This document shows positions 44,075-62,205 of a stretch of 64,000 nucleotides of DNA, piece by piece. Every line of letters starts with the position of its first letter. Positions within the stretch are counted from its first letter, which is position 1. The notes beneath the pieces were generated by a model. The model made no database searches, was not told the DNA's origin, and saw only the letters and a program-made list of their open reading frames with translations. The DNA is from Streptacidiphilus carbonis. Lineage in GTDB: Bacteria > Actinomycetota > Actinomycetes > Streptomycetales > Streptomycetaceae. The stretch lies in the NCBI RefSeq assembly GCF_000787775.1, contig NZ_BBPM01000044.1, positions 1 to 64,000 on the forward strand, written 5' to 3'. The translations under genes were made by a program, and so were the position numbers.

Positions 44075-45643
44075 TCAGTCGCGGAAGACCCAGTGGTTGG
44101 GACCGGCGTCTCCTGGACGCAGGCCCATGCGAGCCGACGGGTGGCGGGCACCGTGGAGCAGGTCGTGGATGTCCGCGAGGACGGGGCGGGCCTGCGCGAA
44201 GTAGCCGTGGCCCAGCATGGTCAGGTCCACGGTGTCGGTCTCGATGGTGTGGATGCCGTCCATCAGGGTGAGCGGAGGTGCGAATCCGGCGCGTGGGGAG
44301 CCGTGCAGGATGCCGGAGCTGCGCAGTGCCTTGTCCTTGGACGACACGTAGAGGGTGGTGCCGTCGGCCACCGGGCGGTAGGCGACGGCCTCGGCGCCAA
44401 AGAACTGGGCACCCACGTCCGGGGCGGCGAGGATGACCTGGCCCAGGGCGATCCCCTCAGTGGCAGAGGTGTGTTCGACCACGCGCATCGCCACCCGCAG
44501 CATCGCCCTGTTGCCCATGCTGTGGGCGAGCACATGCACTTTTCTGGCCCCCGAAAGGACACACAGGTCCCGCAGGAAGCGGCACAGATGCCGCTCCGCG
44601 TGTTGCACGGTGTCCTCATCGACCAGATAGCCGCCGGTGCGGCCCAGCGAGGGCCAGCTGAAGAAGGCGGTCACACCCGGCACCTTGAGGTCCGCGTGCA
44701 ACTGGGCCGCACGGAGCGCCGCTTCGGTGAAGAGGGTGCGGTAGCCGTGCAGATAGAGGAGGATGCACCCCTCTCCCGGCTCCGCGGCCGCGTGCAGTGC
44801 GTCCCGTAGCGCCTGCCAGTACGCCTCCCCGGCCATCGCCCGGTGCTCAAGGAGCCGCAGCCTGTCCTGGCCAAGGGACCGCGAGCGCCGCTGCCGGAGG
44901 CGGCCGAGCTGCATGGCCTTGGGGACAGAGACGACGCAGCAGCCTGTGTGCAGGCTGTCGTCAGGAGTCGTTCCGTAGGGCTCGGCCTCTTGGGTGTCCG
45001 GGTCCTGCGGCCGCCTGTTGGTGCCGTACCAGACGGTCACCCGGGGTTCGTCCGTCCAATTGCCCGAGGCCCGGTAGTTCTCGTTCGACAACTCCCGGCC
45101 TCCGGTCCGCGAAGGCTGGAGGGGCTCGGGGAATTCGGCCATCCCCGTCTCCGCAAAGGCCTGGTCGAAAGCCTCCGCCTCCGGGGATCCCGCAGCGATC
45201 CGCGCGTACCAGGCCAGCAGGAACGCGGTAGCGTTCGCGCGGCCCATTCGCTCGCAGACGTCGACGAGCTCGCCGTCGCCGCCATCGGGCGGGTCGGTTC
45301 GCTCGCCGGCCGGCAGCACGGTTGCGGCGCATCCGTCGAGCACGACGCGCAGCGGACTGCAACTGTGAAGAGCGTCGCGCCATGCGGCCCTTGTGCCGGG
45401 CAGGGGCACCGTGTCGTCCGGCGGACCGACCAGGTGCAGTACGTCGGCGCCGACAACCTGGGAAGCGAGGTCGTGGAGCCCCTCGCCGCCGTCCAGGCGC
45501 ACCCGCAGACCGGGCACCGAACGGAGAGCTCGGAGCAGGACTGCAGCTTCATGGGCCGCTTCCCGACCCGGTAGCGCCCGCACCACCACGTGGAGGGGCG
45601 CGATCCTGCTGTCGTCGTCACGCTGTACCGGATCGCCAGCCAT
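44075..45643 (-). CDS. CHAT-like domain fused to a DUF900-type alpha/beta hydrolase
   Basis: A 522-residue protein. The N-terminal 200 residues have a caspase/CHAT-like order: DVLHLVGPPDD (His position), LRVVLDGCAATV (Cys position) and RANATAFLLAWYARIAAGSPEAEAFDQAFAE. The C-terminal half is a DUF900-type esterase/lipase-like domain: RVTVWYGTNRRPQ, ILLYLHGYRTLF, VTAFFSWPSLG, the nucleophile VHVLAHSMGNRA, VILAAPDVGAQFF and the late LGHGYF. Such hydrolases act on lipids or esters; with a protease-like partner it may be an effector. ATG 45643 has GAGGAGAG. It follows the CHAT protease gene by 47 bases. Confidence 0.7.
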   Translation of the reverse strand: MAGDPVQRDDDSRIAPLHVVVRALPGREAAHEAAVLLRALRSVPGLRVRLDGGEGLHDLASQVVGADVLHLVGPPDDTVPLPGTRAAWRDALHSCSPLRVVLDGCAATVLPAGERTDPPDGGDGELVDVCERMGRANATAFLLAWYARIAAGSPEAEAFDQAFAETGMAEFPEPLQPSRTGGRELSNENYRASGNWTDEPRVTVWYGTNRRPQDPDTQEAEPYGTTPDDSLHTGCCVVSVPKAMQLGRLRQRRSRSLGQDRLRLLEHRAMAGEAYWQALRDALHAAAEPGEGCILLYLHGYRTLFTEAALRAAQLHADLKVPGVTAFFSWPSLGRTGGYLVDEDTVQHAERHLCRFLRDLCVLSGARKVHVLAHSMGNRAMLRVAMRVVEHTSATEGIALGQVILAAPDVGAQFFGAEAVAYRPVADGTTLYVSSKDKALRSSGILHGSPRAGFAPPLTLMDGIHTIETDTVDLTMLGHGYFAQARPVLADIHDLLHGARHPSARMGLRPGDAGPNHWVFRD

Positions 45644-45690
45644 CCGTGTCTCTCCTCTTCGTCGTTCTTCGTCTCGCGTATCCCGCACCG

Positions 45691-48600
45691 TCAGGCTCCA
45701 CTGTGCAGGTACGGCGCCCACATCAACGGCTGGTCGGGATGGTGTGCACGAGCCGCGCGGACGGCTGCGCAGAGCGCGACGGCGGGCTGCTCGCGCCAGC
45801 CGGAGTATGCCAGCCGTTGATAGAACGTCTGCGCGACCTCTTCGGCGGCGCTGTCCGCAGTGGGCCAGATGGTGGCCACGACGTGCGGATAGCCGGCGAT
45901 GTGGAATGCCGAGGCGATGTGGAGTGATTCGTCGGGCAGTGTCGGCCCGGGCCGGGCGGTGTCGCAGGCCGACAGATAGGCAAGCCAGGCGTGCGGTGGT
46001 CTCAATCGGGAGATCCTGGTGAGCCCCAGGTCCTCGTCGCCGAGTTCTACATAGCCCAGCGAAGGATTCACCGGGTTGTGCACGGCGTGGCTGATGAGGT
46101 GGACGCTCGACGCGCCGGCCAATGCGGCCAGGACACCCTCCTCACCTGCTGCGGTGCCGTCCACCAGGTGGACGTCCGGCACCAGGGTCAGTACCGCGCT
46201 GCTCTCGCCGGACGCCACATCCAAATCGGCGGCACCGCTGAGCAGCAGCATCCGCCCGTCGGGAGGTGGCTGCGCTTCCTTCGCCCGGCGGCGCGCAGCC
46301 AGCAGCGAACGGACCGTTGAGGTGTACGAACTCACGCACCGGTCCAGCACATTCGCGCCGGGACCGTTGCCGGCGGCGTGCACCGGCAGCGACGACAGCA
46401 GGCCGGTGGGCACCCACCACACACGGAGGGGCGCTGCGAACGGCCGGTCAGCTGACAAGTCGGCCAAGGCGTCGAGCACGGGGCCCGCCACCGTGTCCCA
46501 CAGCCAGCCGACTGTGTTCGAGAAGGCCGCGTCGAAGGCACGTTCGGCAGTGCGGCGGGCGGGTCCCTCAGTCTCCATGATGCGTTGCAGCGACACGTCC
46601 ATGTCCTCGGCGTACCGGGCGACATGCTCCTGACTGAGAGCGGGCAGCGGCAGCGCGGTGACGGCGCCGTCGGCGATCAGCAGGGCGGCGCAGCCGTAGC
46701 GGGAGACGTTGACCAGGACGACCGGCCCCTCGGCTGCGGCCGTCAGCAGTTCATCCTGGGTCGGAGGCAGCAGGAACCGCTCCAGGCCCGGCACCGCCCT
46801 GATCTCCGCCAGCAGTTCCTCCCATCTGGTGCCCAATTGGTGAGTCGTGTCGCGCGCCTGCCGGTCGACCGGGTCACCGGGCCCTGGTGGGCGGTCCAGG
46901 GCGCCGCGCAGCGCTGTGAAGCGTCGGGCGAGGGGCTTGGCGAGTCGTTCCAGGACGGAGGGGGCGGTCGACGGGTCGGCCATCTGGTCGACCAGGATGC
47001 CGCGCCCCCACTCCAGCAGGCTCAGGGCCTGTGTCGGGTCGCCAACCGCGAGCGCGCACGCCGCGGCCTCGGACGCCAGGCCGAGGAAGGAGACCAGGTG
47101 CCGTTCGCGATCGCGGTGGTCCAGGTGGCGCGGCGCAAGGCGCGGCAACAGGCCCACCGCAGCGGCGAAGAGCTTCAACGCCCAGGTCTCGTCGCTGTCC
47201 TCCATCGCCAGGCGCGCCGCGGCCCAAGCGGCCTCGATGCGCAGGGACACGGGTGCTTTGGCATGGTCGGAGGCTTCCGCCAGGACGAGGCGGGCCTCCG
47301 CGCGGTCCGCAGCCGCACGGGGAAGGCCGGGGAGTGCGAAGGCGCGCTCCCTGAGAGCGTCGCCGAGGTTGAAGCGGTACAGCGCATTGTCCGCGTGTCC
47401 TGCGGGCGACTCGGCGATGGCCTGCCGGAAGAGCTCCACGGCCCGGTCGAACGGCTCGGGCGTCGCGCGCTCGACTGCCCACGTCTGGAGCAGCGTTCCG
47501 AGATTCGAGAGCATACGCGGGCGTTCGACGTGGTGGACCGGAGTACGTGCTGCGGCCTCCTCGGCCACCTCCAGGGCCTCGTCGAGGTCGGCTGGTTCCC
47601 CCGAGTGCCGGTGGCGGGCGAGCAGGGCATTGGACAGGTTGGACAGATACCGGATGGTCTCCGCGTGGTCCGGCGGCGAACTGCGCGTGACCTCGCGCAG
47701 GATCCCGACGGCCTCGTCGAGCCTGCCGCGTTCACCGCGTGCTCCGCTGGTCCACAGGGCCAAGCCGAGGTTGGTCGCGTAGCGCGCGTGGTCGTGGCTG
47801 TCCTCCGAGGTCAGCGTGAGGGCCTGCCTGCTGAGTCCGATGGCTTCGTCCAGGCTTTCCAGGTCGCCGGAGATCTCGTGCCTGGTCCACAACGCCAGGG
47901 CGAGGTTGGAGGCGTAACCGGGCCGTCGGGAGTCGGTCTCGTCCGAGGCCGCTAGCGCAGCCCGGGACTCGGCGATCGCGCTCTCCAAAGCCGCGGGATC
48001 CCCCCAGCACTCGTACGAAAGGCGCAGCGCGATGCCGAGGTTGGAGCGGTATATCGCTGCCTTGGGATGCTCGGACCCAGCGAGCGCGACGGCTCCGGCG
48101 CCCGCCTCGATCGCCCGCGCCAGCAGTTCGGGGTCCCCGCCGGCCTCGTAGCGCATCCGCAGGCCCAGGCCGAGGTGGGTCAGGAAGGCGGCCCTGCTCG
48201 GGTGGTCCGCCGCCGACCTCTCCAGCGCCTCCTGGGAGCATCGAACGGCCAGGTCGAGGAGGGAGGTGTCCGAAGTCTCCTCGTACAAGTCCTGGTAGAG
48301 GGCACTGAGGTTGGACAACTGCTGTGGACTCTCCGGGTCGTCGGATGCAAGCGAGTCCACCACGTTGGTGAGCACGGCGGCGGCCTCCCGCAACACGTCG
48401 ATGTCACCCGTGAGTTCAGCCAGATCCTGCAGGGCCAGCGCGAGGTTGCCAGCGATCGCCTGGCTGTCGGGGTGCGCGGTCCTCGCATCGGCGAGCACGC
48501 CGCGCAGGACGGTGACCGATCGCCGCAGGTGCGACGCCTCCCCGGTGAGGCCGTGCAGGTCCCGCAGCGCCAGACCGAGATTGGCGGCGCACCGCACATA

Positions 48601-49281
48601 CAGTGGGTCGGTCCGCGCGGCCCGGCTGGCGCCGTCGTCCAGCACGGCGACCACGCCTTCGAGGTCGCGCACCTGAGACGAACGGTCGAAACGCGACCAG
48701 AGCGTCACCGCCAGTGCGTTGGCCGCCGCTGTCACGGCAGGCGTTCCGGGTGCCGCGGCGGCGAGCACAGAACGTGCCAGTTCTTCGGACTCCGCAAGCA
48801 AGGCCCCGTCGTCCTCCTCATCGGAGAGCTGGCGCAGCGCCGTAACCAGGACGAGCCCGGTGTCGCTCCATCCCTCGCCGATCGGGGTCAGCTCGCCGGC
48901 TGTCGCTCGGCGCAGCACGGCAACCCCCTCGGCGAGCGCTGCGACGTCCCCGTCCTTCTCGTAGCAGAGGTGCAATGCCTCCCCCAAGCGTCGCTGCGCG
49001 AGCCTGCGGCCCGCGCCCTCGGGCACCAGGGAGAGCAGTTGCCGCCCATGGGCGACTGCTTGCTCCAGGTGTTCCGGCTCTCCGGTCGCCCGGAACGCGC
49101 CGGTCAGGGCGGCGACGAACTCGCAGTGGGCCTCCAGGCCGGACCGCTCCGCGGGCCCCACCCGCAGGCAGACCCTGCGTAGCAGATTCACTGCCTCCGT
49201 GACGGCCTCGATCCCGTCGGCCTCGCCGTGGCGCGCCGACCAACCGCGAGCCGCCGCTAGGGCTTCCTCGACTTCGCTCAT
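45691..49281 (-). CDS. Large TPR-repeat protein with C-terminal CHAT protease domain
   Basis: A 1196-residue protein. Residues 1-780 are helical repeats of tetratricopeptide type, with recurrent GDxxxLxxAVxxxRxAL patterns about 45 residues apart. The C-terminal 350 residues form a caspase-like CHAT domain: VWWVPTGLLSSLPVHAAGNG, the catalytic His in SSVHLISHAVHNP and catalytic Cys in LAYLSACDTA, then SAFHIAGYPHVVATIWPTADS. The peptidase acts as a conflict-system protease that can cleave partner proteins on infection or stress; the trigger is unknown. ATG 49279-49281 has GAGGGGGAG. It is in one operon with a 90-residue upstream gene and the CHAT-like hydrolase gene. Confidence 0.85.
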   Translation of the reverse strand: MSEVEEALAAARGWSARHGEADGIEAVTEAVNLLRRVCLRVGPAERSGLEAHCEFVAALTGAFRATGEPEHLEQAVAHGRQLLSLVPEGAGRRLAQRRLGEALHLCYEKDGDVAALAEGVAVLRRATAGELTPIGEGWSDTGLVLVTALRQLSDEEDDGALLAESEELARSVLAAAAPGTPAVTAAANALAVTLWSRFDRSSQVRDLEGVVAVLDDGASRAARTDPLYVRCAANLGLALRDLHGLTGEASHLRRSVTVLRGVLADARTAHPDSQAIAGNLALALQDLAELTGDIDVLREAAAVLTNVVDSLASDDPESPQQLSNLSALYQDLYEETSDTSLLDLAVRCSQEALERSAADHPSRAAFLTHLGLGLRMRYEAGGDPELLARAIEAGAGAVALAGSEHPKAAIYRSNLGIALRLSYECWGDPAALESAIAESRAALAASDETDSRRPGYASNLALALWTRHEISGDLESLDEAIGLSRQALTLTSEDSHDHARYATNLGLALWTSGARGERGRLDEAVGILREVTRSSPPDHAETIRYLSNLSNALLARHRHSGEPADLDEALEVAEEAAARTPVHHVERPRMLSNLGTLLQTWAVERATPEPFDRAVELFRQAIAESPAGHADNALYRFNLGDALRERAFALPGLPRAAADRAEARLVLAEASDHAKAPVSLRIEAAWAAARLAMEDSDETWALKLFAAAVGLLPRLAPRHLDHRDRERHLVSFLGLASEAAACALAVGDPTQALSLLEWGRGILVDQMADPSTAPSVLERLAKPLARRFTALRGALDRPPGPGDPVDRQARDTTHQLGTRWEELLAEIRAVPGLERFLLPPTQDELLTAAAEGPVVLVNVSRYGCAALLIADGAVTALPLPALSQEHVARYAEDMDVSLQRIMETEGPARRTAERAFDAAFSNTVGWLWDTVAGPVLDALADLSADRPFAAPLRVWWVPTGLLSSLPVHAAGNGPGANVLDRCVSSYTSTVRSLLAARRRAKEAQPPPDGRMLLLSGAADLDVASGESSAVLTLVPDVHLVDGTAAGEEGVLAALAGASSVHLISHAVHNPVNPSLGYVELGDEDLGLTRISRLRPPHAWLAYLSACDTARPGPTLPDESLHIASAFHIAGYPHVVATIWPTADSAAEEVAQTFYQRLAYSGWREQPAVALCAAVRAARAHHPDQPLMWAPYLHSGA

Positions 49282-49292
49282 CTCCCCCTCTT

Positions 49293-49565
49293 TCAAAAGG
49301 CTTTGGGACCAGACCATTCGATCCGGCCCTGGTGGCCGTCGAACGAGTCGTGCGGCGTTTGGATGCCGGTGGTGTGGCAGGGCTCCGGGTGACTGCGGCG
49401 GCCACCGCTGGCAGTCCCCTCGTCGTCGTCCTCCAGCCGACGGAGTGGGATGATCCGTGCGCTGCGGCTGTCGTGCGGACCCCCAGTAGGAGGGATGCCG
49501 GCCGGTGAACAGTCAGAAGACCGGGACTGCCTCCCGGACCGCCCGATAGCGGTGCCGAAATCCAT
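49293..49565 (-). CDS. Small hypothetical protein (90 residues) heading the CHAT operon
   Basis: The 90-residue product starts MDFGTAIGRSG, is rich in Arg, Ser, Asp and Pro, and ends WSGPKAF; it looks mostly disordered. ATG 49563-49565 has AAGGGAG upstream at the usual spacing. Codon third positions are well biased. The stop lies 11 bases before the CHAT start, and the two are transcribed together. A short unstructured protein at this position could be a substrate or activator cleaved by the protease. No family is recognised. Confidence 0.55.
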   Translation of the reverse strand: MDFGTAIGRSGRQSRSSDCSPAGIPPTGGPHDSRSARIIPLRRLEDDDEGTASGGRRSHPEPCHTTGIQTPHDSFDGHQGRIEWSGPKAF

Positions 49566-51266: not shown

Positions 51267-51851
51267 GTGACTGGGCCCAACGCCAAGGCATACGAACAGA
51301 GCCAACTGAACTGGGCAAAACTGCGCCAGTACGCGGTGCGCGTCGCGCGCGAGACCCATGCACCCCGCGGGACGACCAATTTCGTCGTCCAGGAGACCAG
51401 GACCCGCGAGGTCCAGACCGGGCTTTTCGGGCTGTCCAGGAAGCAGGAGTCCTTCACAGTCGACGTGACGAAGGAGCGCCAGAACGAGTATTGGGAACTC
51501 GCCCAGCGATTCTGGCGGAAGGGCGAGAAGGGCCGCGGCTCCCAGGCGGACGAAACGACGTCGAGCACCATCAGATACTGTCTGGGCACCGGCGGTGCAT
51601 TATTCGTCCTCATCGAAAGCGCAACGGATGTGTACCTGAAGCGGGGTGGCTTCTTCACGACCCATGACTCCTCACAGCACCCCATGACCGAATCAGACGT
51701 GCTGCTGTTCGACTTCGCGTCGAAGTACTACACCTCGCCGGGACGAGTCTCCATCGAGACCAACCGTGATCCCGACCTGTCGAAGCTGAAGTACCGAGCT
51801 AAAGGGATTGGCCTCTCGCTCGCCTTGAAGCAGTTGCTCGAATCCCGCTGA
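51267..51851 (+). CDS. Hypothetical protein (194 residues)
   Basis: A 194-residue, probably cytoplasmic protein. It begins with a helix (AKAYEQSQLNWAKLRQYAVRVARETHAPRG), then TTNFVVQETRTREVQTGLFGLSRKQESFTVDV, and a beta-rich part (GGALFVLIESATDVYLKRGGFFTTHDSS), ending DVLLFDFASKYYTSPG. No signal, membrane helix or recognised active site is visible. It has less extreme third-position GC than core genes, fitting acquired DNA. The start is GTG 51267. It is alone on its strand between two gene-free intervals. Confidence 0.5.
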   Translation: MTGPNAKAYEQSQLNWAKLRQYAVRVARETHAPRGTTNFVVQETRTREVQTGLFGLSRKQESFTVDVTKERQNEYWELAQRFWRKGEKGRGSQADETTSSTIRYCLGTGGALFVLIESATDVYLKRGGFFTTHDSSQHPMTESDVLLFDFASKYYTSPGRVSIETNRDPDLSKLKYRAKGIGLSLALKQLLESR

Positions 51852-52906: not shown

Positions 52907-54070
52907 CTAGGCCTCCACCGTTGCGAGGGTCCGGGCACGTTGGGCCAGGGCCTTGTCGGGCAGCCGGAGCGGTCCCGGTAGGGCAGTGGCCATATCGAGG
53001 CCGTCCAGCAGCGCGAGCCGGTGCAGCGGCCACTTGACCGTCATAAGCGTGCGGTGGTCACCGGGGCGATCGCGCAGGTGCCGTTCGACCGCGCGCAGGC
53101 CGCCGAGGTAGACGTGGTCCTTGAGGAAGCCGCCTGGAGCGCCGGTGTCGGGGAGGCCGCGCTTTACGCGCACGGTGATGTCGAAGGCGGAACGCACGTC
53201 GGTGTGCGGCACGAGGGCCCGGACCACGTCGGTGAAGCCGCTGCGGAGCGCGGCGTGCACGGCGACCACCCGCAGTGCGAAGCGCCGGTCGGGCGGGAAC
53301 GCTGCCGCGAAATGCTGTTCGTGCCAGGCCCCGAGCCCTTCCTCGGTGCCGGTGTTCCCGCTCAGCCGCAGGCCCAGAACGAGCGGCCCTCGTTCGGCGT
53401 TGGCCCAACGGAACACATGTGTACCGATTTCATGCACGGTGAGGCGTACGAGCTGCTGCACGGTGAAGTGCGCGTCGGCGCGGATGCTGATCAGCCGCCT
53501 GCTTCCGTTCACGCTCATCAGGGCTGCGCTGCCGTCGACGAGTCGGGTGCTCCAGCCGTCCAGTCCCTCCGCCGCCAGGACCGCGGTCATTACGGCGGAG
53601 GCCCGAGCAGCATCCAGGCTGCGGCGCAGTTCATCGGGCACAACGGGCGCAGGCGCGGCGAGCAGCGCCAGCGCATCACCGAGCAGTGCGGCGTCGGGTG
53701 TCCCGTACTCGGCCGCGCTGATGCGGGTGATGTGCTCGGCGTCATGTCGGATGTGGGCGAGGTGGGCCTCCAGCGAACGCTCCGCCTCATCGGCCACCAG
53801 CCGGTGCCAGGGGCCGCCGGCGGTGGCTGCCTCGCAACGGATCGCCTCCAGTTCGTCGTTGGCCTTCTCCGGCTCGGCGTAGCGGAACTGCGGATCGAAC
53901 GGTTCCCCCTCCTCCCATGCCTGGAGAAACCGCTCCCGGTGGATGGCAACGTCGAGCGGCGCGATCAACCGGTTCGACCGCAGCGCCGCCCGGGCGGCGA
54001 GCAGCCGACCGACCAAACCGTCCACCGCGCGCAGCTCGGACAGGACGGCGTCGGACGGGAGCGGGCTCAT
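52907..54070 (-). CDS. MATCAP/DUF1704-type metallopeptidase
   Basis: A 387-residue protein of the DUF1704 (tyrosine carboxypeptidase, MATCAP-like) family. The signature is VRLTVHEIGTHVFRWAN (zinc HExxxH motif) followed by GNTGTEEGLGAWHE, the EEGL motif that supplies the third ligand. The first half is helical (SELRAVDGLVGRLLAARAALRSN). Eukaryotic relatives remove C-terminal tyrosine from tubulin; bacterial ones are uncharacterised. ATG 54068-54070 overlaps the stop of the 688-residue gene (ATGA), so they are translated together. A cytoplasmic C-terminal trimming peptidase is the likely role; the substrate is unknown. Confidence 0.75.
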   Translation of the reverse strand: MSPLPSDAVLSELRAVDGLVGRLLAARAALRSNRLIAPLDVAIHRERFLQAWEEGEPFDPQFRYAEPEKANDELEAIRCEAATAGGPWHRLVADEAERSLEAHLAHIRHDAEHITRISAAEYGTPDAALLGDALALLAAPAPVVPDELRRSLDAARASAVMTAVLAAEGLDGWSTRLVDGSAALMSVNGSRRLISIRADAHFTVQQLVRLTVHEIGTHVFRWANAERGPLVLGLRLSGNTGTEEGLGAWHEQHFAAAFPPDRRFALRVVAVHAALRSGFTDVVRALVPHTDVRSAFDITVRVKRGLPDTGAPGGFLKDHVYLGGLRAVERHLRDRPGDHRTLMTVKWPLHRLALLDGLDMATALPGPLRLPDKALAQRARTLATVEA

Positions 54071-56133
54071 GACGGGTTCCCGGCACGGACTCCGCTGCCG
54101 GTGAGACGGCCCAGCCGTTCGCTCATCTGGGCGAAGTCCAGTACCCGGTACCTCAGGCTGGGCTCGTCGCCACGGACGAAAGGCTCGCAGGCGTCGAGGA
54201 ACTCCGCGGCTCTGGCTGTCCACTGCGAGCGCTCGGCCGAACTGGCCGCCCCGGCTGCCTCGGCGGAGGTGAGATAGCAGTCGGCCAGGCAGAGCGTCAT
54301 GATGTAGCCCGAGGATGAGGTGCCGGCATTCGCCCGCAGTTCGGCAACATCGTCCCCTCCGGCCAGGAGTTCCTCGGCGAGCGCGCGGGCCGTGCGCAGA
54401 TGCTCGGCCTTGGCGTCGGGGTCCTCGATATCCCGGGCCAGGCGTGTGTAGCCGCGCACGCTGACTTGCAGGCTGACGCGCAGGATTCCGAATCGTCCGT
54501 TGGCTCGGTATGACTCCCGTCGGCTCGGCAGCACCTCGTCGCGGAGCAGGGCGAGCCCCCGCTCGCGCATCTCCAGGGTTGATGCAGCCTGCACCAGGAA
54601 GCCGGCGTAGTTGTGCAGTCGACCCTGGTATCCGCTGGTCCCGGCAGCGAAGAAGCTTTCCAGGACCGGGAGGTAGGCCTTCCATAGGTCCTCCAGGATC
54701 CGGGTGAGTTCCGCCGCGCTTGGCAGTTCGGGGACCGGGGCTGCATGCTGGCGTGCGCGGACCTGGTTGAGGCCGACCAGGAGATTGTCCACACGGTTGC
54801 AGATGTAGCCGCTGGAGAACTCCCCATGGGCGGCAGCACGCAGTAGTTCGGCGGCGAGAGGAACCGCCTCTTGGATACGTGCGGCCCGCAGCGAGGCGGT
54901 CTGCGGGCTCGTGGGGTCCTCGCCCTGCCCCGCAGGGTGGTCGATGAGTTCGGCGAGGGCGTACAGCCGCTCCAGAGGGGACTCTGTGGAGCGGCTGCTG
55001 AATGTCTCTTCGACGGCATCCGCGTAGCGCAGCATGAGCAGCGCACGCCGGTGCCGCGCGGGTTCCCCGCTATTTCCCATGGTCGCCATCATCGAGCTGA
55101 GCAGTCCCCGGTGGACGGTGAGTGCGGCGCGCTGGGCCAGCGGGGTTCCGCCCGCTGACACAGGGCTGCTTGCGGTGATCGCATCCAGCCTCACTCGAGA
55201 GAGTTCCACAGGGTCGGACTGGTCGCCGGGGTCCAGGACGTGGGGGCTGACTCCCTGGATGAACCGTTTGATCCTGCTGATCGTCATCAGGAAGAGGTCG
55301 GCCCGGCGCCCGTCCGGGCCGTCGAGGATGCGCAGGGCGGCATCGTCGGCCCCGGCGGACGCGTCGAGCAGGGTGCCCTTGGCGAAGGTCGAGACCAGTC
55401 GGCAGAGGCGGTCGTGCGCATTTCCGACCATGGCCTGCTCCGTGCTCGGGTCCGCTCCGGGCTCGTTCGACTCCGCCGGGGTCAGCCGTCGGCACAGGGT
55501 GTCGCTGAGGCGCACCACAAGGTCGAGCGACAGCGGTGAGTTGGCGGGGCTGTGGCTGGTGTCCTCCCGGCCGAACTCGTGCAGGGCCAGGGCGGTCACG
55601 CCTGCGACCCTGAACGGCGCCCCGACCGCGCTCAGCGCCCGCTGCACTCCTTCTGCCTGCATGGCGGAGAGGATCAGCAGCGGTTCGGAACGGAACACCT
55701 CCAGCAGGCACGAGGCATAGGTGCCGATGAGCAGGATCGGATCGTCGACCGGTACCTCTGCCAGGGCGTTGCACAGGGCATCGGTGACCGGTTCGAGCAG
55801 GACGTTCGCGGCGGTCAGGACGAACGCGGCCTTGGTGTCAGGCCCGAAGCGGGCAGCTGTGGCGTTGGCGATGGGCGAGGAGCCCTTCAGCTCGTCGTCG
55901 GACACTCCCCGGTCCGCGTAGCCGCCGGGTTCTGAATCCTTCGCGGGACGCGGCGCGCCGCGCATCACCTCGGCGAGCGTGAGACGGGAGTAGTCGCAGC
56001 ACCAGGACTGCCAGCCTCCCGGGGCTTCTGGCCAGGGAACGCCGAAGAGGGGGCCGACCTTTCTGGCGAGCCTGGCCGGGGTCTGCTTGGCACGGCTCTC
56101 CGGGATGGGCGGAATCTGGGCATTCATGATCAC
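54067..56133 (-). CDS. Large helical protein of unknown function (688 residues)
   Basis: A 688-residue cytoplasmic protein, mostly amphipathic helices. Notable parts are WPEAPGGWQSWCCDYSRLTLAEVMRG near the start, KAAFVLTAANVLLEPVTDALC, LLSSMMATMGNSGEPARHRRALLMLRYADAVEE, and helical repeats such as ERGLALLRDEVLPSRRESYRANGRF, with LCLADCYLTSAEAAG near the end. No enzyme motif or membrane helix is visible; it resembles a repeat scaffold. GTG 56131-56133 is preferred, since AGGAGG lies 8 bases upstream. It is cotranslated with the MATCAP-like peptidase and diverges from the coiled-coil gene at 56307. Confidence 0.6.
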   Translation of the reverse strand: MIMNAQIPPIPESRAKQTPARLARKVGPLFGVPWPEAPGGWQSWCCDYSRLTLAEVMRGAPRPAKDSEPGGYADRGVSDDELKGSSPIANATAARFGPDTKAAFVLTAANVLLEPVTDALCNALAEVPVDDPILLIGTYASCLLEVFRSEPLLILSAMQAEGVQRALSAVGAPFRVAGVTALALHEFGREDTSHSPANSPLSLDLVVRLSDTLCRRLTPAESNEPGADPSTEQAMVGNAHDRLCRLVSTFAKGTLLDASAGADDAALRILDGPDGRRADLFLMTISRIKRFIQGVSPHVLDPGDQSDPVELSRVRLDAITASSPVSAGGTPLAQRAALTVHRGLLSSMMATMGNSGEPARHRRALLMLRYADAVEETFSSRSTESPLERLYALAELIDHPAGQGEDPTSPQTASLRAARIQEAVPLAAELLRAAAHGEFSSGYICNRVDNLLVGLNQVRARQHAAPVPELPSAAELTRILEDLWKAYLPVLESFFAAGTSGYQGRLHNYAGFLVQAASTLEMRERGLALLRDEVLPSRRESYRANGRFGILRVSLQVSVRGYTRLARDIEDPDAKAEHLRTARALAEELLAGGDDVAELRANAGTSSSGYIMTLCLADCYLTSAEAAGAASSAERSQWTARAAEFLDACEPFVRGDEPSLRYRVLDFAQMSERLGRLTGSGVRAGNPS

Positions 56134-56306
56134 TGGACTGACCTCCTGAGTACAGGATAGTCCCACTCAGGCGTAGCACAACCCCCCAAGAGCGCTTGCC
56201 ACCTGTGCGTCAGATTCTCTGTTGATAGAGAAAACTACTCCAAAGCACTTGACGTCTCATGGGACGCCTCCCATCTTGGATACATATCCATCACCGGGAG
56301 GGAACC

Positions 56307-57014
56307 ATGGCTCGGAAGTCCTCAGGACCCGACAAGCCCGCCGTCCGCAAGGCCCACCACGGCCGCTACGGCGCTGTCGCACGCGTCTCGGACCACTTCA
56401 ACGGCGGCCGCGACGGTAAGAAGACCCTCCCGGACATCGAGCTGGACGGGTCGGTGTCCACTCCCACACTTGAGTTCCACGCCCACCGGGCGGCCTCGGC
56501 CCAGCACGTCGAGCGCATCCGGTACCTGATGGAGTGCGAGGAACTCGCCGTCTCCGTCTCCGTCCTGCGGCAGCGGCTCGCCACCGCCGGCAAGGAGCTC
56601 GACCAGCGGCAGCAGGCAGTCACCGACCTGTCCGGGCCCTTGAGCGACGAGCAGCTCGGGCAGCGCAGGGCGGGAGAGCACCGGACGGCCGAGGCCATCG
56701 TCCGCTCCCGTCGGGCCGCCGAGCGCGCCCGGCCGCTCGCGGCTGCCCGTCTCGCCCGCACCGAAGCTGCGGACCGGGTCAGCGCGTTGGAGCTGGAGCT
56801 GAGCAGCTTGGAGGCACTGCTCTCGGTCCGGCAGGAGATCGCCGCCTCGCGGGCCGCCTTCATCCACGAGAACGCGCTGCGCCGGGTGGCCTCCTACTTC
56901 CGACGCCTCGTGCGGCGCCACCCCCAGGGCCAGCGGATCAATGCCGCGCTCAAGCCCGGCGGCCCCGAGCTTCCCTCCTGGGCGAACGGGTCCGACGGAG
57001 CCCTTCCGCGCTAG
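56307..57014 (+). CDS. Coiled-coil protein of unknown function
   Basis: A 235-residue protein: a basic, Gly-rich start (MARKSSGPDKPAVRKAHHGRYGAVARVSDHFNGGRDGKK), then a long coiled coil of heptad-type Leu/Ala repeats from about residue 70 to 200 (EELAVSVSVLRQRLATAGKELDQRQQ, RVSALELELSSLEALLSVRQEIAASR), and a basic end (FRRLVRRHPQGQR). ATG 56307 has GGGAGGG. It heads a run of five same-strand genes (to 59978) and diverges from the peptidase operon. The shape suits a scaffold that dimerises and binds a charged partner. No family is recognised. Confidence 0.6.
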   Translation: MARKSSGPDKPAVRKAHHGRYGAVARVSDHFNGGRDGKKTLPDIELDGSVSTPTLEFHAHRAASAQHVERIRYLMECEELAVSVSVLRQRLATAGKELDQRQQAVTDLSGPLSDEQLGQRRAGEHRTAEAIVRSRRAAERARPLAAARLARTEAADRVSALELELSSLEALLSVRQEIAASRAAFIHENALRRVASYFRRLVRRHPQGQRINAALKPGGPELPSWANGSDGALPR

Positions 57015-57102
57015 CCGCCCGGGACCCCACCAGCCCGCACCATCGACAGTCCTTCGCCCCACCGACCGTCCGTACCGCCATCGCCGGCACAAAGGAGCAG
57101 AG

Positions 57103-57552
57103 ATGCGATTTCCACCGAAGCGCAAGTCCCAGCCGCAGGCTGGACCGGCCGACCCGCCCTCCTACGTGGTGACCTCAGCGGGGGAGGACGACTCCTGGTC
57201 GATCCCGGCCCTGTACGGGATGGCCCCGGCCGCCGACCTCGGTACGGCGCGGCAGACCGTCAGGCAGCTCGTCGACGGCTTGGCCCCCGACGCCATCGAC
57301 GCCGGGACGGGCGCAGTCCTGGACAACACGGTCAACGCCTGGGCCGACCAGTGGCTCGCCCGGCTGGACACCGACCACACGCTGCGCGAGAACGTGGTCG
57401 CCCACCTGGTCGGCCAGGCGGCCGAGAAGCTTGCCGCCGCCAGAGCCGCCCACCAGGACGCCCTGGCCGAACTCGGCCGCACTGAGCGGACCCTGACCGA
57501 GGTTCACACCCGCCTGACCTCGGACGTCCCCGCCCCCGGCAACAAGTCCTGA
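57103..57552 (+). CDS. Hypothetical protein (149 residues)
   Basis: A 149-residue protein with a basic N-terminus (MRFPPKRKSQ), a DDSWSIPALYGMAPAADLGTA segment, and helices (RQLVDGLAPDAIDAGTG, LDNTVNAWADQWLARLDTDHTLRENVVAHL, AAEKLAAARAAHQDALAELGR). The last helix has heptads and may pair with the coiled coil of the upstream gene. ATG 57103 has AAAGGAG. It follows the coiled-coil gene by 88 bases. It looks cytoplasmic. The function is unknown. Confidence 0.55.
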   Translation: MRFPPKRKSQPQAGPADPPSYVVTSAGEDDSWSIPALYGMAPAADLGTARQTVRQLVDGLAPDAIDAGTGAVLDNTVNAWADQWLARLDTDHTLRENVVAHLVGQAAEKLAAARAAHQDALAELGRTERTLTEVHTRLTSDVPAPGNKS

Positions 57553-57656
57553 CACCGCCTCCCGGGCGCCAGCCACGCGAGCGGCGGGCCCGGCAGCGAC
57601 CCGCCCGCAGGAATCCCCGGCGGGCCCCCTCCGCACCAGTACTCAAGGAGCGCGAC

Positions 57657-58538
57657 ATGGCACTGCCCTCCGACGGCGTCCACGAACGCCGATCCCCCTT
57701 CGCCGACTCGGATCTGATCACCGGATCCCCCCGCATCTGGCCGTACGTGATGATCCTGGTCGTCACGGCCGGTGCCGACGTCGCCGCCTTCTACCAGGTG
57801 GTGGCGCTGATCATGCCCGTCTCCCCCTGGCTGGTCTACCTGCTCGTCGTGGGCCTCACCGGCACGGCTCTGTCGCTGGCGCACTTCGCCGGCATCGCGA
57901 TGCGCACGGCCGAGGAGCGAGCCCGGCCCACGCACAGCGCCCGGCATGCCGGCGTCCTGATCGCGATCTGGATGCTGCTCGGCGCGGCGGCCTTCATCAT
58001 TCGCCTCCTCGGGAGCGGTGCGGACGCCGGCTCCGGATCATCGACCGGGTTCCGGACCGGTGGATCAGCGTCTGATTCGACCGGGACGCCACACCAGGCG
58101 CTGCTGACGGCAGGGCTGTTCCTGGCGCTCTACCTCGGCACGGGAGCCATCGCCTGCCTCAGCTCCCACCGCGCGCACAACCCGGTGGCCCTCGCCCACC
58201 GCAGGGCCCGGCAGGCCCAGCAGGTAGCCGCCCAGGCTGCGCGCCACACGGGTTCAGCACTGGTCCGCGCGGAGTTGGAGCACCAGCAGCAGCTCGACGA
58301 GCGCGAGCGGGACGAGCGGCGCTGGCAGCACGCTCGTGCCGAGCGGCTCGCCTGGGCCGAAGAACTCAAGCGCTACGCCCGTGTGCTGATGGCCACCCAT
58401 CTGGCCGACCCCGCGGCCACCGACGGTCTCACCGACCCCGACCTGCGCCCCTCGCAGCCCTCCGGCCGTGAGGTCATCCACCTCGTGCGGCCCGACGACG
58501 GGACCGCCGAGCCCGGCAGTGAGGACGCGGCCGGATGA
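57657..58538 (+). CDS. Membrane protein with C-terminal cytoplasmic helix
   Basis: A 293-residue protein with about four membrane helices (WPYVMILVVTAGADVAAFYQVVALIM, WLVYLLVVGLTGTALSLAHFAGIA, HAGVLIAIWMLLGAAAFIIRLLG, ALLTAGLFLALYLGTGAIACLSS). A charged coiled-coil region (VAAQAARHTGSALVRAELEHQQQLDERERDERRWQHARAERLAWAEELKRYARVLM) follows, and the end is disordered. ATG 57657 has AAGGAG. It overlaps the small zinc-ribbon gene by ATGA. It could anchor a complex to the membrane with the OmpA-like lipoprotein outside and the coiled-coil proteins inside. It has no known family. Confidence 0.55.
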   Translation: MALPSDGVHERRSPFADSDLITGSPRIWPYVMILVVTAGADVAAFYQVVALIMPVSPWLVYLLVVGLTGTALSLAHFAGIAMRTAEERARPTHSARHAGVLIAIWMLLGAAAFIIRLLGSGADAGSGSSTGFRTGGSASDSTGTPHQALLTAGLFLALYLGTGAIACLSSHRAHNPVALAHRRARQAQQVAAQAARHTGSALVRAELEHQQQLDERERDERRWQHARAERLAWAEELKRYARVLMATHLADPAATDGLTDPDLRPSQPSGREVIHLVRPDDGTAEPGSEDAAG

Positions 58539-58714
58539 GCGCGCCCGACGGGGCGCAGCAGCGACCCACCGGACCGCTCCTGCCCTGCCCCCACTGCGGT
58601 CGGCCCCTGCAGCCTTGCCCCGCCTGCGCCGACAGTGGCTCCGTGACCGTCTGTCAGACCTGCCGGTCCGGCCTGGTCTGTCCCGCATGCGGACGGCACT
58701 GGACCTCCCCCTGA
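58535..58714 (+). CDS. Zinc-ribbon mini-protein with four CxxC motifs (59 residues)
   Basis: A 59-residue protein with the Cys pattern CPHC, CPAC, CQTC, CPAC, which should bind two zinc ions in a double zinc ribbon. ATG 58535 overlaps the membrane-protein stop by ATGA, so it is translated with it. Almost every codon ends in G or C, so it is coding even though it is short. It may be a small cytoplasmic adaptor of the complex. No family is recognised. Confidence 0.65.
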   Translation: MSAPDGAQQRPTGPLLPCPHCGRPLQPCPACADSGSVTVCQTCRSGLVCPACGRHWTSP

Positions 58715-58754
58715 CCGCTTGACCCCAAGAGAGCCCACGTAGAGGAGCTACACC

Positions 58755-59978
58755 ATGAAGACCAAGCAGGCCGCGCGGCCCCGCCGACGGATCGCCGGCA
58801 CCCTGGTGGCCATCGGCCTCCTGGCGGTGACCGGCTGCGGGAGCAGCCGCCCGGCACCCGACCCCGGCCCCGGCCCCGTCGGCGGCACCGCAATCGCTGG
58901 GGTGGACTCCCCCTGCCCCAGCGGCGCGGCAGGAGCAGTGACACTCGTCCTCGGGGCCCGGGCCAACAGTCCCGCCCCGCAGTTGGACCCTGCCGTCGAC
59001 GCACTCCTCGACCACGCCGCCGCGGCCGGCCGGCCGATCACCGTGATCCGATCGGACGGTAGCCCGGAGAAGGTGATCAGTGAGACCTTCAGCAGCCGAG
59101 CCGGGAACACGGTGGCCCTGAGGGGGGACCGGATCCAATTCGAGCGGAACCTCCAGACAACGATCGACGGTGTTCGGGCGAAGTCCGCCCAGGCCGACCC
59201 GTTGACGGCACTGGGGCTCGCGGGCCGCTCCACCCAGCAGGGCGGCACGGTCGTCATGATCGACTCAGGCCTGCAGACGGTCGCGCCGCTGAACTTCCGC
59301 AGCGGGGGCCTGCTCGACGCTGCCCCCGAGGACGTCACGTCCTTCCTCAGCCGCGGACGGGACCTCCCCGCACTGCAGGGGCTGAGCGTCGTGCTCATGG
59401 GGATCGGTGACACCGCAGCCCCGCAGCCCCGGTTGCCCAGCCGGGAGCACGCCAACCTGGTGGCCCTGTGGAAGGCCGTCGCACAGAAGGCCGGGGCTGC
59501 GTGCGTGGACGTGGTCAGCGACCCCGCTACCGGCCCGGCCGTCAGTGGTGTTCCCTCTGTCTCGACGGTCCCGGTACCGGCCCAGGCCTCGTACTCCGCC
59601 GTGTGCGGCACGCAGGTGCTGTACGACAGCGGCAGCGTGGGATTCCTCCCCGACAGTGCGGTCCTGCGGGACCCCGCAGCTGCCCGCAGCGTTCTCGGCC
59701 GGCTCGCCGGCTGGATCGCCGACAAGGGATTCAATGTCGCGCTGACCGGCACGACGGCCGACTGGGGAACCGAACAGGGCCGTCACCAGCTCTCGGTCGC
59801 CCGTGCCACCAGTGTCCAGAACCTCCTTTTGCGCCTCGGCGTCCCGGCCGACCGGATCACGGTCACGGGCGTGGGCAGCGACTGGCCCGGATACATCCCC
59901 GACCGGGCTCCGAACGGTGCCTTGCTGCCCGGCCCGGCGGAGCACAACCGGTCCGTCCTCCTCAACGTTCGCTGCTGA
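58755..59978 (+). CDS. Lipoprotein with an OmpA-type C-terminal domain
   Basis: A 407-residue protein: signal peptide ending in the lipobox VTGC, then a vWA-like domain (VTLVLGARANSPAPQLDPAVDAL, TVVMIDSGLQTVAPLNF, LQGLSVVLMGIGD), and a C-terminal OmpA-type peptidoglycan-binding domain (QVLYDSGSVGFLPDSA, GWIADKGFNVALTGTTADWGTEQGRHQLSVARATSVQNLLLRLGVPADRITVTGVG, EHNRSVLLNV). It is unusual for a Gram-positive organism. ATG 58755 is preceded by GAGGAG. It is the last gene in the run from 56307, before a strong hairpin at 60056. It probably anchors the complex to the cell wall. Confidence 0.75.
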   Translation: MKTKQAARPRRRIAGTLVAIGLLAVTGCGSSRPAPDPGPGPVGGTAIAGVDSPCPSGAAGAVTLVLGARANSPAPQLDPAVDALLDHAAAAGRPITVIRSDGSPEKVISETFSSRAGNTVALRGDRIQFERNLQTTIDGVRAKSAQADPLTALGLAGRSTQQGGTVVMIDSGLQTVAPLNFRSGGLLDAAPEDVTSFLSRGRDLPALQGLSVVLMGIGDTAAPQPRLPSREHANLVALWKAVAQKAGAACVDVVSDPATGPAVSGVPSVSTVPVPAQASYSAVCGTQVLYDSGSVGFLPDSAVLRDPAAARSVLGRLAGWIADKGFNVALTGTTADWGTEQGRHQLSVARATSVQNLLLRLGVPADRITVTGVGSDWPGYIPDRAPNGALLPGPAEHNRSVLLNVRC

Positions 59979-60523: not shown

Positions 60524-62059
60524 TCACCATGAGCTCACCACCCCGTCGGACACCTGCGTCCGCTGCAGGCAGGTGCGCAGGCTTGACGGCCGAATGTCGC
60601 GCAGCAGCGACACCCGCCCATTGTTCGCGACCTGGTCCAGCCACGCCAGGCACCGTGCGGCGCAGTCAAACTGACTGTCACTCAGCTGGTCGGGGAAGGA
60701 AGGGTCGTCGGCGTCCGGGGCCGGCGACAGAGGTGCGAGCCGCAGCCGCAGGTCGTGCTCTGGCCCCAAGGCGGCACTCCGCTCCTCCAGCACCTCCTCG
60801 ACACACGCCAGCGCACGATCCATGTCCGCCTTCCACGCATCGGCCGGGCGGGCGTCGAGCGCGGTGAGCTGCCGGCGCCGGGCCCACCAGCCGAGGTGGG
60901 CGGCCGAAGGCCTGGCGTACACGACATGGGCACGGACGTCCCGCAACAGGAGACGCGTCGCCTCGTCGTAGACGTCCTGGTCGCCGAAGATGTACGGCTT
61001 GACGAGCATCACCACCGGCCACGGGTCCGCCGGGTCGGTGAGCGTGCCCGCCCGCCGGACGGCCGCGCTCCAGCCCTGTCGGCGACGGTTCGCCGGAGCC
61101 AACGCCTGCGCCCTGACCAGCCGGCCGGAGTCGAACGCGGTGGCCGAGGTCACCGGCACATAGCGCCAGCCCAGTGCTCTGGCGAGGAGCGCCGCGGTGG
61201 CGCCGATCGAGTAGTCCGCGCCGATCACCACGACCGGCAGGCCATCGGTCGAGGCCCAGGGTCGGCGCTCGTTGAAGGGCTGGCCGGTCAGAACGTGCTG
61301 GACGAGCAGATGGGTCGGCCATCGCTGGGAAACGGGCTTCCACAGCGTCGTTCCCGGTTCGCCCTGCCAGCTGAAGTCACCGGCCCTGGACAGGGCTTCG
61401 GCCGTGACCACTTCCAACTCCATCCGGTAGAGCCGGTGGCCGACGGACCCGGAATCGCTCCCGTCGGCATCGCACCTGGCTCTCCGTGCCGGGCGCAATC
61501 CCACTGCCAGGGCACGGGCCGTCAACTCCGCGTCCTCCAGCGGTGTTGCGGTGCCACAGGGCGTGAACTCCGCCAGCAGCGTTGTCACCACTGGACACCG
61601 CTCACCCGCTTCAAGTGCCCGCAGCTGTACCTGGAAGCGTGTGGCGGCCTGCTGGTCACCAAGTACCGCCGCGGCTGCCAGCAGTGCGGCCCCGCCGGCG
61701 TCCTCGGACGGCAGTCCGTCCAGGCTCTCGCTCAGCTTTGCCACGGCCGCTTTCGTAGTCTCCAACTGGGTCGTCAGATCTGGTTGCCGGACCGCCGAAA
61801 CCTCATGGGCGGGCAACCAGCCCATCTCCGCGTAGACCCGGGAGACCCGTACGCCGGCGAGTTCGGCCAGGGCCCGCAGTACAGACGGCTTGGGCATCGT
61901 CCTGCCACACATATAACTGCGGAGCGCCCCGACGCTGACCCCCAACTGGATGGAGAGCGCCTCGTCGGTGATGGGGCCGCGTCTCGTCTCCGCCTGTTTC
62001 CGCAGCTCGCGCAGCGTATTCGCGGCATTCTTGAGTTCGCCGTCCTTGTACGTCAACAC
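60524..62059 (-). CDS. XRE-type helix-turn-helix protein with a large unknown C-terminal domain
   Basis: A 511-residue protein. Near its start it has a helix-turn-helix of XRE type: ITDEALSIQLGVSVGALRSYMCGRTMPKPSVLRALAELAGVRVSRVYAEMGWLP. Then follow a helical linker (TTQLETTKAAVAKLSESLDGL) and a 380-residue domain of unknown kind, with SYSIGATAALLARALGWRYVPV-type strands (DYSIGATAALLARALGWRY) and PVVMLVKPYIFGDQDVYDEATRLLLRDVRAHVVYARPSA. It looks like a sugar-nucleotide or Rossmann-type layer, but no family is recognised. The GTG 62057-62059 is my choice; the frame opens at a TTG, 62089. It may regulate the neighbouring loci. Confidence 0.6.
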   Translation of the reverse strand: MLTYKDGELKNAANTLRELRKQAETRRGPITDEALSIQLGVSVGALRSYMCGRTMPKPSVLRALAELAGVRVSRVYAEMGWLPAHEVSAVRQPDLTTQLETTKAAVAKLSESLDGLPSEDAGGAALLAAAAVLGDQQAATRFQVQLRALEAGERCPVVTTLLAEFTPCGTATPLEDAELTARALAVGLRPARRARCDADGSDSGSVGHRLYRMELEVVTAEALSRAGDFSWQGEPGTTLWKPVSQRWPTHLLVQHVLTGQPFNERRPWASTDGLPVVVIGADYSIGATAALLARALGWRYVPVTSATAFDSGRLVRAQALAPANRRRQGWSAAVRRAGTLTDPADPWPVVMLVKPYIFGDQDVYDEATRLLLRDVRAHVVYARPSAAHLGWWARRRQLTALDARPADAWKADMDRALACVEEVLEERSAALGPEHDLRLRLAPLSPAPDADDPSFPDQLSDSQFDCAARCLAWLDQVANNGRVSLLRDIRPSSLRTCLQRTQVSDGVVSSW

Positions 62060-62205
62060 GCCCCCCCGGCCGAACAGATCTGGTGACAAAAGCGTACAGA
62101 AATGGCGACTGACGAGATGCCTCTTCCCTCATGCTGGATAGCACTCGCGATCTCCGTATCTGGTGGAGGACAGGCGAGTTCGGGTCAAGGGGAGGGAGCG
62201 GCGCC

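Follow-up and report, generated by a model that had tools for sequence, protein, structure and literature searches.

A conserved actinobacterial envelope module encoded head-to-head with a divergent MATCAP-type metallopeptidase in Streptacidiphilus carbonis

Two operons diverge from a short intergenic region of the Streptacidiphilus carbonis genome (8.46 Mb, 139 contigs): on the minus strand a gene for a metallopeptidase of the MATCAP type, preceded by that of a large helical protein, and on the plus strand five genes that end with an OmpA-type lipoprotein. This arrangement raises the question of whether the two operons form a single system, in which events at the envelope lead to the peptidase, as the original prediction proposed, or two units that merely lie side by side. 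Here, we approach it from the 64,000-nt stretch of DNA that was analysed as a whole (the window) and from searches of related genomes, plasmids and viral sequences.

Layout and genome setting of the locus

All seven genes of the two operons were recovered as open reading frames where the original prediction had placed them (Table 1). The tight spacing that it described holds for the ATGA overlaps between the P0002 and P0001 genes and between the P0005 and zinc-ribbon genes, which suggest translational coupling of the MATCAP and zinc-ribbon genes to those upstream of them, but not for the flanks of the P0004 gene, where gaps of 88 and 104 bp are found. Shine-Dalgarno-like sequences lie upstream of P0002, P0003, P0004, P0005 and P0006. 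A consensus scan of the divergent region gave no sigma-70 promoter and a palindrome scan no strong palindrome, neither Rfam models nor a tRNA search had hits in the window, and PADLOC, run without the zinc-ribbon and CHAT proteins, gave no match up to an E-value of 0.1.

Table 1. Features of the locus and of the neighbouring CHAT region, in window coordinates
Feature	Position	Strand	Basis and remarks
MATCAP-type metallopeptidase P0001, 387 aa	52907..54070	-	ATG at 54070, stop at 52907; PF08014, 7z5g alignment
P0002, 688-residue all-helical orphan	54067..56133	-	GTG start; alternative ATG at 56127
Divergent intergenic region between both operons	56134..56306		about 173 bp
P0003, cytoplasmic coiled-coil protein, 236 aa	56307..57014	+	homologs in G387 and pPE-7, same order
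P0004, helical protein, 149 aa	57103..57552	+	homologs in pPE-7 and G387
P0005, 4-TM membrane protein, 293 aa, C-terminal cytoplasmic helix	57657..58538	+	homologs in G387, pPE-7, L013, L014, L034, L037 and G517
Zinc-ribbon mini-protein, 59 aa, four CxxC pairs	58535..58714	+	homolog at same position in G517, L035/L050
P0006 lipoprotein, 407 aa; vWA-like ectodomain (MIDAS degenerate), C-terminal OmpA	58755..59978	+	PF00691; family alignments
CHAT-TPR peptidase, 1208 aa; possible partner	45691..49317	-	PF12770, E=2.8e-35
DUF900 alpha/beta hydrolase, overlapping the CHAT gene; possible part	44075..45721	-	PF05990, E=2.5e-30

The original prediction overlooked the CHAT-TPR and DUF900 hydrolase genes at 44075-49317. 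The former is the only CHAT gene in a genome-wide count, lies 12 kb from P0006, and encodes a dyad that looks intact, with its His (HLISH) and Cys (LSACDT) present; about 3.6 kb, seemingly with plus-strand genes, separates it from MATCAP. At 51267-51851 (plus strand), a 194-aa open reading frame has a sub-threshold MepB-like match. Beyond the lipoprotein, at 60524-62089 (minus strand), lies a gene whose 521-aa product has a sub-threshold HTH match at its N terminus, is otherwise without known domains, and is missing from the other members of the genus. None of the 13 other genus members has this flanking HTH gene, P0002, MATCAP or the module lipoprotein, and the region looks like accessory DNA specific to the strain.

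Conservation and topology of the plus-strand module

The five plus-strand genes are a real, conserved module that recurs in distant soil bacteria, as the original prediction of one unit had implied. The order P0003, P0004, P0005, OmpA lipoprotein is kept on the Nocardia plasmid pPE-7, where each of the four has significant similarity to its counterpart, and in the actinomycete genome G387. For P0003 the G387 homolog reaches a phmmer E-value of 5.5e-8, and profile matches occur in L013, L014 and L034; P0003 being a coiled coil, the weaker of these are to be read with care. Homologs of P0004 are those of pPE-7 (5.7e-13) and G387, and homologs of P0005 were found in G387 (7e-27), pPE-7 (2e-15) and the other loci of Table 1, that of G517 through hhalign (3.9e-5). 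The succession from P0005 to P0006 is repeated in G517, with a P0005 relative, then a zinc-ribbon gene, then the lipoprotein gene, and the zinc-ribbon protein has the CxxC pairs, the CGRHW ending and the ATGA overlap seen in the window; this independent homolog at the corresponding position confirms the short reading frame as a gene. Looser versions are carried by the Rhodococcus plasmids pNSL1 and DN22 p4 and by the genomes G344 and G395, in all of which a P0005 relative lies near the lipoprotein; the first three also have P0003-like genes. Homology of P0004 to small proteins of Rhodococcus and G344 was not established; the weak matches of P0003 to MerR and conjugation proteins, and that of P0004 to a phage structural protein, probably reflect coiled-coil character or sequence composition. 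On pPE-7, the TM and OmpA genes flank a gene (L015:28462-28953) for a 163-aa metzincin-like protein (HELGHAVGLGH, HExxHxxGxxH).

Relatives of P0006 itself occur on four actinobacterial plasmids and in 12 other genomes of the class, and a single-sequence search found them in three genomes of the family, of which one is shared; no further lipoprotein locus emerged when 239 family genomes were searched with a profile, and viral contigs and phage records held no relatives. The predicted topology, with the lipoprotein outside, a 4-TM linker and cytoplasmic coiled coils, is supported. P0006 has a lipobox (VTGC) at C28 whose cysteine is kept in nearly all relatives, and P0005 has four hydrophobic segments, identified by eye, and a helical tail.

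The suggestion that the lipoprotein is anchored to the wall fared less well. Its lipobox and OmpA domain (PF00691, E=1.4e-10) speak for it; in canonical OmpA domains, however, an Asp has a direct role in contacting diaminopimelate, and in P0006 that column holds A335, the Arg (R350) being kept. The same Asp is replaced across the module-associated relatives and kept in L017, L039 and L041. Since it is replaced throughout the P0006 clade, wall binding cannot be assumed. In the ectodomain, L017, L018 and L041 have a DxSxS MIDAS motif in the columns where P0006 reads ARANS, and this alignment indicates that the ectodomain is vWA-like with its metal site lost. The structure model of P0006 was unusable (pLDDT 37). 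L017, L039 and L041 represent a second conserved setting of the OmpA lipoprotein family, with Crp-like (L017, L039) and cyclase-like genes, a 740-850 aa protein, a 300-370 aa protein (in two of the three), the OmpA lipoprotein and a 3-4 TM protein; the vWA MIDAS is intact in L017 and L041.

The MATCAP-type peptidase and its helical neighbour

The assignment of P0001 to the DUF1704 metallopeptidases is confirmed by its match to PF08014 (E=4e-27, 95.5 bits), which is above the curated cut-off of 27, and by its alignment with the structure of human MATCAP1 (7z5g, E=8.8e-14), in which the HEIGTH (HExxxH) and TEEGL motifs coincide; the active-site motifs are intact in alignment with 7z5g and with bacterial and archaeal relatives. 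The family is rare, with matches in eight of 395 genomes of the class, and six other matches score 264-294 bits against 95.7 here. For the bacterial QEGLA family (TIGR02421), P0001 scores 110.5 bits, below the equivalog cut-off of 338.65. A segment of the form KRGxxDTxxPGxFLKDxVYLxG aligns with its counterpart in human MATCAP1 (KRGxxDTxxPGxFxKDxVYL) and is also found in an archaeal relative from a Woesearchaeota MAG (L008:9986-11071), and it is absent from the six ordinary actinobacterial QEGLA proteins compared. Judged by these alignments, P0001 does belong to the MATCAP metallopeptidases, as a divergent member whose motifs are nearer to those of human MATCAP1 than to those of ordinary actinobacterial QEGLA proteins. 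We note that P0001, the Woesearchaeota protein and human MATCAP1 have the KRG-DT-PG segment in common as a MATCAP subgroup.

Human members of the family trim C-terminal residues (PMC10499314), which would allow P0001 to be a maturation or house-keeping hydrolase that removes C-terminal amino acids from one of the module's proteins or from some small peptide rather than an effector; the module proteins have no obvious conserved acidic or tyrosine C-terminal tail, and we regard such a role as very improbable.

P0002, by comparison with the module, is an orphan, with no homologs in 298 family genomes, a GTDB contig scan or plasmids. Structure prediction from the single sequence agreed with its described helical nature, giving an all-helical model of poor quality (pLDDT 53) in which only residues 384-683 are usable; in this low-confidence model the C-terminal half appears TPR-like through weak matches, and Foldseek found no match below E=0.001. 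A CATRA-type trio consists of a CHAT protein and two characteristic partner proteins. P0002 does not resemble such partners: CATRA-type ones are present in L013, L014 and L050, and none of them matches it.

Coupling to peptidases and relation to known systems

CHAT peptidase genes recur in the vicinity of the module. A pair of CHAT-type genes in G387, of which one seems to lack the catalytic dyad, leads directly into it, and kinase, ClpB-like AAA+, FHA and radical-SAM-like genes lie downstream on the same strand. On pNSL1, on DN22 p4 and in G517, CHAT orthologs (E-values of 1e-64 or better) are encoded about 6-12 kb from the module (10 kb in G517), and genes for helical proteins and for TPR or kinase-TPR proteins lie near the lipoprotein. 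With a cut-off of 12.5 kb, chosen after the data had been inspected, CHAT lies within reach of the lipoprotein in 3 of 15 genomes (chance about 3e-4) and, excluding the present genome, in 2 of 14 (chance about 0.008). No peptidase lies close to several of the lipoprotein relatives, a CHAT trio without the lipoprotein is found on R. ruber pYYL1.1, and CHAT-TPR relatives are encoded by six of the 13 remaining members of the genus, which are without the module; the CHAT-DUF900 pair was not refound in the loci tested, some of which have short flanks. In G344 (L034), the genes adjoining the module are, by names assigned from reading the sequences, membrane histidine-kinase-like, receiver-like, alpha/beta hydrolase and LuxR-type genes.

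These neighbourhoods bear on the possibility that the module serves envelope structure, or has a plasmid or conjugation role such as surface exclusion or wall maintenance, instead of peptidase signalling. Homologs on four actinobacterial plasmids, some adjoining relaxase or transfer genes, and the OmpA-type domain itself would suit such a role, but chromosomal copies adjoin CHAT, kinase, FHA, AAA+ or two-component-like genes and the canonical wall-binding Asp is lost, and we think this explanation unlikely.

Whether the MATCAP half belongs with the module is harder to judge. The gene-order comparison in other genomes bore out the original prediction for the module but never for the MATCAP half: among the genomes searched, no second one has MATCAP beside the module, all 14 other lipoprotein-bearing genomes checked are without it, and, of the eight PF08014 genomes, only the present one has it at an OmpA locus; since P0002 has no homolog and the MATCAP-P0002 pair no second case, this co-occurrence test has little power. 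The same absences, those within the genus and the lack of a shared regulatory element in our scans would be expected if MATCAP and P0002 formed an independent cassette in a strain-specific island, brought head-to-head with the module by chance. Set against this are divergent start codons only 173 bp apart and a module that adjoins peptidases elsewhere too, and we consider the chance arrangement a serious possibility, though well short of an even one. The argument for unity draws on adjacency, divergent transcription and the analogy that module neighbours are often peptidases; on this basis, both halves may form one system with about an even chance, or a little less. The proposal that the envelope leads to the peptidase likewise gains from the peptidase genes beside the module elsewhere and loses from the lack of another genome with MATCAP, and a coupled envelope-peptidase system is plausible.

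Our working model treats the plus-strand genes as a horizontally spread actinobacterial envelope module with an exchangeable cytoplasmic output, here probably MATCAP, a reading whose probability we place somewhat under even. The lipoprotein, with its vWA-like ectodomain and OmpA domain, would stand outside the membrane as part of a putative physical complex, and P0005, with its four TM segments, would pass a signal inward, perhaps with the zinc-ribbon protein as adaptor, to two coiled-coil proteins that take it up in the cytoplasm. The outputs would most often be CHAT (caspase-like) peptidases, and elsewhere a Ser/Thr kinase with FHA and AAA+ proteins or histidine-kinase-like and LuxR gene products; in the present locus, the likely output would be the divergent MATCAP, held by its helical partner P0002, possibly joined by the CHAT-TPR protein. 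Upon damage to the envelope, or upon invasion, the peptidase would be released or activated and would trim C-terminal residues from, or cleave, a host or invader protein, and the outcome might be immunity or a stress response. That the locus represents a new system of immunity or stress response in actinobacteria, with a lipoprotein, membrane and coiled-coil relay controlling interchangeable peptidases and a eukaryote-like MATCAP replacing or joining CHAT, is a more doubtful proposition.

The envelope module itself is real, conserved and little described; the literature searched contains no description of it, nor of MATCAP in a bacterial defence setting. If the coupling is true, it would tie envelope sensing in actinobacteria modularly to intracellular proteases, provide a first functional setting for bacterial MATCAP-type enzymes and give a bacterial context to the family of peptidases whose animal members trim tubulin tails; with MATCAP left aside, a recurring TM, zinc-ribbon and OmpA set beside CHAT peptidases is a testable system.

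Among known proteins, the MATCAP/TMCP tubulin carboxypeptidases (PF08014; human KIAA0895L), for which the HExxxH and EEG metal-binding motifs have been described (PMC10499314), share with P0001 the HExxxH and EEGL metal site, the KRGxxDTxxPGxFxKDxVYL segment and 36% identity over the core, whereas P0001 is bacterial, is linked to a helical orphan and is not expected to act on tubulin. The bacterial QEGLA proteins share its fold family and metal motifs, from which P0001 departs by having EEGL for QEGL and the extra KRG-DT-PG segment, which those compared from actinobacteria do not have. P0006 has a C-terminal OmpA-like domain in common with mycobacterial Rv0899 (ArfA/OmpATb), its best match among solved structures, and with Pal-type lipoproteins, but differs from both in its vWA-like N-terminal domain and its gene neighbourhood. 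CHAT or caspase-dependent conflict systems, including the CATRA systems named in PMC8195603, resemble the loci of pNSL1, DN22 p4 and G517, where CHAT and helical partners co-occur with the module; the window, unlike these, encodes a TPR-CHAT protein without such partners, to which P0002 is dissimilar, and no trio of the CATRA type. Lastly, although no MoxR, vWA or iSTAND NTPase genes were found among the proteins scanned at the module locus, the iSTAND ternary conflict systems, which carry membrane-anchored OmpA, PEGA or PASTA domains (PMC7159879), have in common with the module the idea of a wall-facing OmpA domain coupled to cytoplasmic conflict proteins.
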